Shown here: positions 7,016-9,873 of the stretch, piece by piece
Position numbering within the stretch: position 1 is the first letter of the stretch
Layout of the letters: each line of letters starts with the position of its first letter
Source: Cyclobacteriaceae bacterium
GTDB lineage: Bacteria; Bacteroidota; Bacteroidia; Cytophagales; Cyclobacteriaceae
Assembly: GCA_016786585.1 (NCBI GenBank)
Contig: JAEUUI010000006.1
Coordinates: 186,001-250,000, forward strand
DNA: 64,000 nt
Reading direction: 5' to 3'
Translations under genes and position numbers: made by a program
The notes under the pieces: model-generated
Databases searched by the model: none
What the model was told of the DNA's origin: nothing
Seen by the model: only the letters and a program-made list of their open reading frames with translations

Positions 7016-8275
7016 ATGAGACCTGACGAAAAAGGTTGGTTACAAGAATACCTCGACTTTAAGAAAGATGCGCTAAAAGATCTTTCTCAGAAGAAACGTG
7101 GCTCGCATCCTGAGCACTCGCTATACCGGATTATTCAACCTACAGGATTAATGTATGGCCAGAACGTTGGTCATCTCGACTATCCGAACGCTGAAAACTG
7201 GAGCGAAAAAGACAAAATGAAAATTCTGCTGGCGGAAAGCCTGATCAGCAGTTCACTACTCTTTTACGACAAGCCGGTTAAAACTCCGGAAGAACTTTCG
7301 CAGGTTTTTCTGAAGACAATCGAAAACATCGGCAATTTCTATAACAACATTTTTCCAGAACTGGCCATACCCGGCAAAAGCTTGTTCGGTAAAAAGCGCT
7401 CACCCCTGGAGCTGGCAGAAAAAATTCTCGACAAGCGCGTTGAACGGACGATTGAATTTCAGGGAAACTTCTGGACGTACTTTTTTCATAACAGTCTCCT
7501 GTTCCTCGATGTATTTATTTTCGGACAGTGGATTCACACCAATGCCGATCGTATTGTAGCCGACTTCTTCCGCTACGAGCGCGATGAGTTACGGTTTTCG
7601 ATTGTGAAAGTAATTGCTGCGGCTGCGCACTCCGACAACACCGTTGATTTTGAAGAGCGAAAAATGCTTGAGCTCTTTATTCAGAGCAGCGACCTGAACA
7701 CAGAAAGGCGAAAAGAAGCACTAACGGTTTTCGACAAAGGGATTGAAGTGGAGGAAATAAACCTGCCATCTGAAAACTCATGGATTCTCAAAAAGTTCTT
7801 CCTCGAGATCGCAATTCTTACCACCTGGGCTGATAAAAAAGTGGAGCAAGCCGAGCATTATTTCATGAAACGGTTTTGCAGCTACCTCGGTCTTTCCGAA
7901 GATGATTTGGATAACAGCCTGATCGCCATCGAAGGATTTGTACTCGAGCACTGGGAACAGCTGGATTATCTGCAAGACAAGCAGGATTATAACCAGGTGA
8001 GTGAAGACTTTATTGGCCGCATTTCAAAAATTGCAGAAAAGAATAAAACACGTTTAGCGAAAGAGATTCAGGAGCGCGAGGTTGTAAGTGCTCTGTTGCG
8101 AAAGGCCCGGACGGAGGAGCTTTCAGCCGAGGAAAATGAACGTATCCGGCACGAACTTATCGATATCCTGAAGACAATTCCCACGTTTGTTATTATTTCG
8201 CTTCCGCAGCGTTTCCTGACTCTGCCGGTATTGATGAAGATTCTTCCGAAGAATCTGTTTACAGAGGAGCGCTAA
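7016..8275 (+). CDS. LETM1-related protein with internal TerB-like domain
   Basis: A 419-residue protein. A central TerB-like region (about residues 190-305) carries AAAHSDNTVDFEERKML and, about 70 residues later, TTWADKKVEQAEHYFMKRF, the same paired motif as the TerB gene at 2619. The C-terminal 50 residues (HELIDILKTIPTFVIISLPQ, then LPVLMKILP) resemble the LETM1 region found in Bacteroidota LETM1-related biofilm-associated proteins. No signal peptide is evident. The function is unknown; by analogy with mitochondrial LETM1 an ion-homeostasis role can be imagined but not shown. It converges on terC with 2 nt between stops. Confidence 0.72.
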   Translation: MRPDEKGWLQEYLDFKKDALKDLSQKKRGSHPEHSLYRIIQPTGLMYGQNVGHLDYPNAENWSEKDKMKILLAESLISSSLLFYDKPVKTPEELSQVFLKTIENIGNFYNNIFPELAIPGKSLFGKKRSPLELAEKILDKRVERTIEFQGNFWTYFFHNSLLFLDVFIFGQWIHTNADRIVADFFRYERDELRFSIVKVIAAAAHSDNTVDFEERKMLELFIQSSDLNTERRKEALTVFDKGIEVEEINLPSENSWILKKFFLEIAILTTWADKKVEQAEHYFMKRFCSYLGLSEDDLDNSLIAIEGFVLEHWEQLDYLQDKQDYNQVSEDFIGRISKIAEKNKTRLAKEIQEREVVSALLRKARTEELSAEENERIRHELIDILKTIPTFVIISLPQRFLTLPVLMKILPKNLFTEER

Positions 8276-8277
8276 GA

Positions 8278-9300
8278 TTATTCAGCTTCTGCGCTTTCCT
8301 TGCGCGGGATTAGCACCGAGAATATAATCGAAAGTGTAAGTGTTGCGATGATGACCGTAAACGAAAGGTACACGTTCAGCTCAATGTGGAATATTTCCAG
8401 AAGCATCTTCGCGCCAATAAAGAACAGAATAATTGAAAGCCCTTTCTGCAACAAGTAGAATTTATCGATGATACCCGCCAGCAGGAAGAACATTGCACGT
8501 AGTCCCATTACTGCGAAAATGTTCGAAGTGTAAATCAGGAACTCGTTTTGTGTAATTGCAAAGGCTGCAGGAATGGAGTCAACTGCAAAAATAAGGTCGG
8601 TGGTTTCAATCAATACAATTACCAGGAATAACGGGGTAAAGAACCATTTCCCGTTTTCTTTAAAAAAGAATTGACCACCCTGATCACCATTTGATATCGG
8701 CAGGTATTTGCGGCAAATTCTTAAGATTGGATTTTTCTCAGGCTCGATTTTCTCATCACCATCTTCGAAATAAATGCGGATACCGGAGTAAATCAGGAAC
8801 ACACCGAAGATGTAAAGAATCCAATGAAACTTATGAATAAGAATCGCTCCTACGAAAATGAATATCGCACGGAAAATGACTGCACCCAAAATTCCCCAGA
8901 ACAGAATCCTGTGGTAGTATGTTTCGTCAACCTTGAAGTATTTCAGGATCAACAGGATTACGAAAATATTATCAACTGAAAGGGCGTATTCAGTTAAGTA
9001 CGTAGAAAAATAAAGTACCGCAGCATCTGAACCTGTCAGGTTGGTGTGGACACCTCCTTCAAGATGAGCGTAAGGCCCTCCGAAATAAATCAGTAAACCA
9101 AAAACGGTGCTGACAGATACCCAAAAAATAGACTGATAAAGTGCCGACTTGGTAGTGATCTTATGAGCTTGTTTATGAAACAAACCAAGATCAACAATCA
9201 TGAAAACAATAATAACGGCAAGGAAAATACCGAAGAGAATAGTCTCTCGCTGATCGCCACTAAAAAGGGAAAAGAGGAGTATATCGAATGTTCTCAGCAA
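8278..9300 (-). CDS. TerC/Alx-family membrane protein, likely metal exporter
   Basis: A 340-residue protein with about nine membrane spans and the TerC signature EYALSVDNIFVILLI and, later, ETTDLIFAVDSIPAAFAIT, each with acidic residues inside a span. Characterised Alx/MntP-linked TerC proteins export manganese. The frame opens with TTG at 9300; there is no ATG before Met34, which would remove the first membrane span, so TTG is preferred. It has its own strong promoter (9375-9404) and a leader of about 70 nt filled by a stem structure (9328-9368). Confidence 0.88.
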   Translation of the reverse strand: MLRTFDILLFSLFSGDQRETILFGIFLAVIIVFMIVDLGLFHKQAHKITTKSALYQSIFWVSVSTVFGLLIYFGGPYAHLEGGVHTNLTGSDAAVLYFSTYLTEYALSVDNIFVILLILKYFKVDETYYHRILFWGILGAVIFRAIFIFVGAILIHKFHWILYIFGVFLIYSGIRIYFEDGDEKIEPEKNPILRICRKYLPISNGDQGGQFFFKENGKWFFTPLFLVIVLIETTDLIFAVDSIPAAFAITQNEFLIYTSNIFAVMGLRAMFFLLAGIIDKFYLLQKGLSIILFFIGAKMLLEIFHIELNVYLSFTVIIATLTLSIIFSVLIPRKESAEAE

Positions 9301-9327
9301 GTGAATCTCAGTTCAGAGTTTAGGGGA

Positions 9328-9368
9328 GTAGGCAACTTGTCAAGTTTTTAGCGGTTTTAGCCGCCTAC
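9328..9368 (-). promoter_or_regulatory. structured 5' leader of terC (candidate cis-regulatory RNA)
   Basis: Read on the minus strand, GTAGGC (9368-9363) pairs with GCCTAC (9333-9328), enclosing two hairpins: GCGG/CCGC around CTAAAA (64-61 with 54-51 of 93xx) and the near-perfect AACTTG/CAAGTT palindrome at 9334-9346. Two bases (9363-9364) are claimed by both the outer stem and the first hairpin, so the two pairings compete. The structure starts at the predicted transcription start. It does not match the manganese (yybP-ykoY) riboswitch in this orientation. Its role as a regulator is inferred. Confidence 0.5.
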
Positions 9369-9374
9369 AGCCTT

Positions 9375-9404
9375 CAAAAGTACTAATTTAATTTAATCCC
9401 AAAA
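9375..9404 (-). promoter_or_regulatory. terC promoter
   Basis: On the minus strand TTTTG (9404-9400) is followed after 17 nt by TACTTTTG (9382-9375), an exact TAnnTTTG box. The transcript should begin near 9370, giving terC a leader of about 70 nt. Confidence 0.75.
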
Positions 9405-9462: not shown

Positions 9463-9873
9463 TTACCCGCAGGTACCACAAACGCCCTGAATAAGCAGAT
9501 TTATTTCCCGGGGCTGATACCCCTTGGGTAGCTTGATTTCGGGGATTTCGACCTGTAAACAGTTGGTTTGACCACACTTCGTGCACTTGAAATGTACATG
9601 GTCATGATGATGGTTTGCGGTGGTACAGGCCTCGTTGCAAAGGGCGTATTTCATACCTCCTTCGCCATCCAGAACCTTGTGAATAAGACCCTTGTCGAGG
9701 AAGGTTTTTAATGTCCGGTAAACCGTTACCCGATCAAAGGTAGCAGGCACTTCTTTTTCAAGATCGCCATGCGAGAGCGCATAGTTGTGGGTAAGAAAAG
9801 CATCTAGAATGGCAGCCCTGCCGGGAGTCGACCGAAGTTTAAAATCTTTCAGTATGCGGAACGAACTGTTCAT
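9463..9873 (-). CDS. Fur-family metal-dependent repressor
   Basis: A 136-residue Fur-superfamily regulator. The winged helix includes the recognition segment FDRVTVYRTLKTFLDKGLI (residues 46-64). The C-terminal half has the metal-site cluster HHHDHVH (88-94) and two structural zinc pairs, CTKC (97-100) and CGTC (132-135). Whether it senses iron (Fur), zinc (Zur) or peroxide (PerR) cannot be read from sequence alone. It is the last gene of the gpmI-lipoprotein-ABC unit, overlapping the ABC gene by ATGA, and a candidate binder of the feoAB operator 9 kb away. Confidence 0.92.
   Translation of the reverse strand: MNSSFRILKDFKLRSTPGRAAILDAFLTHNYALSHGDLEKEVPATFDRVTVYRTLKTFLDKGLIHKVLDGEGGMKYALCNEACTTANHHHDHVHFKCTKCGQTNCLQVEIPEIKLPKGYQPREINLLIQGVCGTCG

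Follow-up and report, generated by a model that had tools for sequence, protein, structure and literature searches.

A simple predicted 5'-terminal hairpin in the terC mRNA leader of a Cyclobacteriaceae bacterium

Stem-loops at the very 5' end of an mRNA reportedly stabilize it in the case of the E. coli ompA type, as is said to have been described by Emory in 1992 (a reference of PMC7509114), and a terC RNA motif is among the entries of Rfam. Genes of the TerC family are controlled elsewhere by the yybP-ykoY element (RF00080), as exemplified by the B. subtilis TerC gene meeY, which is under a manganese riboswitch (PMC10550928). A literature search returned nothing on a "terC RNA motif", nor on terC combined with riboswitch and manganese in Bacteroidetes.

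The locus considered here lies in a window of 64,000 nucleotides (the whole stretch of DNA analysed) from a Cyclobacteriaceae bacterium. A preliminary description had placed a compact structured RNA ahead of terC at 9300-9382 and had set it apart from yybP-ykoY. The sequence is indeed found there on the minus strand, and the distinction holds at every level searched: an Rfam scan of the window at the gathering score gave no match, nor did a scan of 16 terC loci with E values up to 1 (the terminator-like loci L054, L073, L077, L087, and L090 included), and RF00080 was detected in none of 118 genomes of the family (E up to 0.001, stricter filters). As a control, the RF00080 search yielded matches in 3 of 14 control genomes, including those of E. 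coli and B. subtilis. Given no Rfam match and 0/118 family genomes, identification of the window's leader as yybP-ykoY was rejected.

The terC product scores well above the TIGR03718 cut-off of 246.4 bits (Table 1), and its TTG start at 9300 was confirmed. The gene convergent with it (7016-8275, plus strand) gives a weak TerB-like match, at 23.9 bits against a cut-off of 24.4, and its LETM1-related matches likewise fall short of the cut-off. Read along the minus strand, the upstream region runs from TTTTTG to TACTTTTG, 17 bases after the TTTG of that run, and on through AAGGCTGTAGGCGGCTAAAACCGCTAAAAACTTGACAAGTTGCCTACTCCCC and 22 further bases to the TTG of terC (9300). The proposed strong promoter with a start near 9370 stands in part: the -33 and -7 boxes are present, but the start is a prediction, made at 9370 because the TAnnTTTG of a flavobacterium spans -12 to -5 (PMC9723704). 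The box is positioned 68-75 nt before the start codon in all 16 terC orthologues of the genus. When 83 box-anchored terC leaders were aligned, the columns just upstream carried 0.9-1.4 bits of information and all those downstream 0.63 bits or less, from which we conclude that the terC promoter is shared and the leader is not.

Table 1. Features of the terC locus, in coordinates of the window
Feature	Position	Strand	Basis or remark
terC, TTG start, TerC/Alx family	8278..9300	minus	PF03741 170.8 bits, TIGR03718 363 bits
Fur-family regulator gene, directly upstream of terC	9463..9873	minus	PF01475 46.6 bits
-33 element TTTG of terC promoter	9400..9403	minus	17 nt upstream of -7 box; T-rich here in 83 anchored leaders
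-7 box TACTTTTG, consensus TAnnTTTG	9375..9382	minus	consensus in 77/103 distinct terC leaders
Predicted transcription start	9370	minus	predicted from -7 box offset (PMC9723704)
Predicted 5'-terminal stem-loop	9328..9368	minus	minimum-energy fold; pairing probabilities 0.911-0.996
Core stem GUAGGC/GCCUAC	9368-9363 with 9333-9328	minus	invariant in 3 species
Upper stem, 4 bp	9362-9359 with 9337-9334	minus	not kept in sister species
Leader tail UCCCCUAAAC... to start codon, largely unpaired	9301..9327	minus	sequence and predicted fold

In its main predicted fold this leader forms one hairpin of 10 bp that closes a 21-nt loop, flanked by two further pairs and accompanied by a small CUC/GAG hairpin. 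With the +1 predicted at 9370, the 5' UTR would be 70 nt long and the hairpin 5'-terminal, preceded by 2 unpaired nucleotides. The outer stem drawn in the preliminary description is present (0.995), with pairing probabilities of 0.995-0.996 in the core stem and 0.911-0.975 in the four upper pairs. The finer anatomy proposed with it did not hold up. Two inner hairpins had been described, of which the first pairs with a probability of 0.004-0.009 and the second with 0.016-0.023, and in each of the two, both sister species carry a mismatch at one pair. A competition between the outer stem and the first hairpin for two bases, as in a switch, is unconfirmed because the inner hairpins are, pair 14-23 of the first being the one mismatched in both sisters; the small CUC/GAG hairpin likewise contains a mismatched pair in both. 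In energetic terms, the 10-bp stem alone is worth -13.2 kcal/mol versus -7.0 to -8.4 kcal/mol for three-part folds, and the three-part fold with competing stems was rejected, its inner hairpins being neither stable nor kept. The terC leader is real and its simple 5'-terminal hairpin is a prediction; a switch anatomy is not supported.

The stretch 9373-9301 has a minimum energy of -18.3 kcal/mol and a z of -2.55, and 4 of 200 shuffles fold equally well. As background from the same genome we used 88 sites in 464 kb that look like promoters and precede open reading frames, folded identically, a looser set that replaced an earlier one of only 9 members; within it the terC leader ranks third by energy and fourth by z. 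Its folding strength is unusual, not extraordinary. The leaders of the two sister species fold more weakly (z of -2.38 and -1.61), and their structure above the core stem is not identical.

Elsewhere in the same genome (L188, contig C9, minus strand, approximately 4160-4073), a strong hairpin with a z of -6.4 directly follows a TAACTTTG box and is itself followed by a T-rich run, upstream of a gene recognized by eye as greA-like. From its sequence, this hairpin resembles a leader attenuator.

The window-type element has a narrow distribution. DNA searches found it in 3 of the 17 genomes of the genus, its own included, and a covariance model returned the same three at 89-91 bits and everything else in the 17 genomes at 23.6 bits or below; all three matches of at least 80 bits lie at terC. 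Over 42 terC loci, the model picked up the five loci belonging to these three species and one further match of 12.7 bits (E 0.72). A family-wide version of the element was rejected on these counts, which for this sequence lend no support to a new class across Bacteroidota. Nor did alignment help the original proposal, for which a lack of covarying pairs in aligned leaders had been named as contrary evidence: across the three species the outer 6 bp are invariant and the upper stem is partly broken without compensatory change, leaving no pair changed on both sides among three aligned sequences, a sample of low power.

The leader stretch is nevertheless constrained, since it differs from the sister species at 11/71 and 8/72 sites, and the terC promoter at 1/40 and 0/40, far less than the 73/135 and 77/140 seen at four-fold sites of terC. 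This constraint is not particular to the leader. The rest of that intergenic region, promoter excluded, is conserved to a similar degree (8/45 and 7/45 sites differing), and the terC upstream region does not stand out among eight comparable ones nearby, where it comes third (8 of the 63 called genes qualified for this comparison).

A close terC orthologue is present in 16 of the 17 genomes of the genus, the exception being G109 (81% complete), where the only terC match has 48% identity. Three of the 16 leaders are of the window type and ten carry a different hairpin with a GAUWAUG loop (GAUUAUU in one of the ten) that resembles the window type in size and place. The other three are L127, with a 10-bp hairpin, and L131 and L132, which have no stable hairpin and were folded as the identical leaders L069 and L053 (z of 0.44 and 0.35). 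A covariance model built from five of the GAUWAUG leaders recovers all ten and none of the window type, and the window-type model in turn misses the GAUWAUG type. Across the 17 genomes the GAUWAUG model gives 11 matches, ten of them at terC; the weakest of the ten (25.8 bits, E 0.0464) has a sequence much like that of stronger ones, and the eleventh, L218, comes from the same genome as this weakest match and scores 26.9 bits at a locus without terC.

Here the pairing shows evidence of covariation, in an alignment that was fitted to the model and so leans towards its structure: pairing holds in 80.8% of cells, both sides have changed in 5 of 12 pairs, and there are 13 compensatory cells compared with 6.4 in shuffles, none of 500 shuffles reaching as high. 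The covariation score is 0.437, versus at most 0.239 for slid versions. By two other counts there is no excess over the shuffles: 243 of 500 reach the observed number of pairs with changes on both sides, and 430 the observed number of pair types. The five-sequence seed alone shows a weaker covariation excess. RNAalifold saw only 3 pairs because MAFFT had placed two congener sub-groups out of register. Folded singly, the hairpins of the ten congeners have z values from -0.71 to -5.74; L124 (1418-1476) provides an example of this covarying type. Because the -7 box lies at a similar distance from the start codon in both types (73-74 nt in the window type, 70-75 nt in the ten congeners), we take the two leaders to be orthologous. 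They share the gene, the approximate promoter-to-start distance and size, and differ in the sequence of stem and loop and in the covarying pairs, which are found in the GAUWAUG type.

A third kind of terC leader occurs outside the genus. In 17 of 80 terC loci (L041, L054 at 1420-1476, L073, L087, L090, L092, and 11 others), a GGUGAUUA...UAAUCACC hairpin or close variant followed by a U-rich run lies just after the predicted start. A model built from these 17 loci matches 23 of 62 genomes in the genus of G209, at least 11 of which are among the model's own sources, and terC is directly downstream in 20 of the 20 loci fetched. Its reach is limited: in the family of G209 it was found in 2 of 148 genomes, one being G209 itself and the other weak, and across the order in 6 of 390 genomes, at 33.9-40.1 bits, so a family- or order-wide hairpin of this type was rejected. 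The pattern also appears in 8 of 196 genomes of the window's family (nine loci, six of them read by eye). Scattering of the palindrome through its genomes was rejected too, the exact palindrome occurring once each at terC in 11 of 12 genomes and at two other places, both of which look by eye like coding sequence.

The terminator-type stem is nearly invariant: both sides have changed in 1 of its 12 pairs, too little for covariation to tell RNA from DNA. An argument for RNA pairing from G-U changes was dropped, as any one-sided change that preserves a standard pair involves G-U. The spacing of the arms varies, with matches of 33 to 36 nt at 11 terC places, and this variable distance, together with the T-run that follows, suits an early terminator. 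Judged from sequence, the terminator-type terC leader is a candidate attenuator. More broadly, 66 of the 103 terC leaders had the -7 pattern and were folded, giving a mean z of -1.30 versus 0.02 in the background and z below -2 in 17/66 versus 4/88, figures whose p-values are not independent evidence because the sequences are related and the background comes from one genome. Most of the low values belong to the terminator type, and beyond the genus many terC leaders show z values close to 0. By eye, L043, L046, L048, L049, L056, and L062 are terC leaders with a short CACA/UGUG-type stem and then a U-rich stretch.

We tentatively favour, at somewhat short of an even chance, the view that the window's hairpin is a fast-evolving 5'-terminal leader hairpin of terC that likely acts on mRNA lifetime or translation. 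In the predicted 5' UTR, 2 unpaired nucleotides would be followed by a single stem-loop. This stem-loop would be the local form of a terC leader hairpin whose position is shared across most of the genus while its sequence turns over quickly. Its effect on terC expression would be in cis and would come once transcription has begun, presumably through the mRNA, where a structured 5' end may slow decay, govern how readily ribosomes reach the unpaired tail and the TTG start, or both. The main rival, a serious one although on the doubtful side, is that the hairpin has no role and is a chance fold in a region constrained as promoter and translation-start sequence. This would account for a z of only -2.55 in a fold picked from 64 kb, for the lack of covariation among three sequences, for a constraint similar to that seen elsewhere in the intergenic region and in other upstream regions, and for the restriction to three species; it sits less comfortably with the third rank among 88 leaders by energy and with the covarying hairpins found at the same place in ten congeners.

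Two further readings assign the locus a sensing or binding function. It is unlikely that terC mRNAs of the family use, in place of yybP-ykoY, new manganese- or pH-sensing leader RNAs of clade-specific shapes, and just as doubtful that the window hairpin, the GAUWAUG-loop hairpin, and the GGUGAUUA...UAAUCACC-U hairpin would be three solutions to the same regulatory task. The precedent of B. subtilis meeY (PMC10550928) and the lack of a yybP-ykoY match in 118 family genomes are consistent with sensing, as is the observation that the terC leader hairpins of related clades are nearly confined to terC and have a loop or a terminator stem that hardly varies. However, the three types have no common core, the window type has neither the loop motif nor a U-run, and for the window's own leader sensing was proposed from the gene family. 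Inverted repeats in the promoter and leader make a DNA operator another candidate, a rather improbable one, in which the conserved stretch would be an operator within and near the part transcribed first, with the adjacent Fur-family protein binding to it. All 16 orthologous loci of the genus have the Fur-family gene directly upstream on the same strand. Counting duplicates, such a gene precedes terC in 79 of 128 terC loci overall; none was found within the fetched flanks of the other 49. An 8-nt inverted repeat, AAGTTTTT upstream of the start (9408-9401) and AAAAACTT in the hairpin loop (9349-9342), is kept in all three window-type species, and AACTTGACAAGTT (9346-9334) forms a 6-1-6 palindrome in the window. 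Yet both sister species break this palindrome, the inverted-repeat arms are short and A/T-rich, and the AAAAACTT arm is absent from the ten GAUWAUG congeners even though they keep the Fur-family gene.

As it stands, the window's element, which we regard as a terC leader hairpin, is a local one with modest support, and the GAUWAUG-loop and terminator-type leaders are better places to test the idea. If the leader does control terC, a family of Bacteroidota would manage metal homeostasis with RNA leaders that differ from the known manganese riboswitch, and the replacement of leader structures would be visible among congeneric species. Unlike yybP-ykoY, the window's leader consists of one predicted 41-nt hairpin that matches no Rfam family. 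In position it would resemble the stabilizing stem-loop of the E. coli ompA type, with 2 unpaired nucleotides ahead of it if transcription starts at 9370 as predicted.
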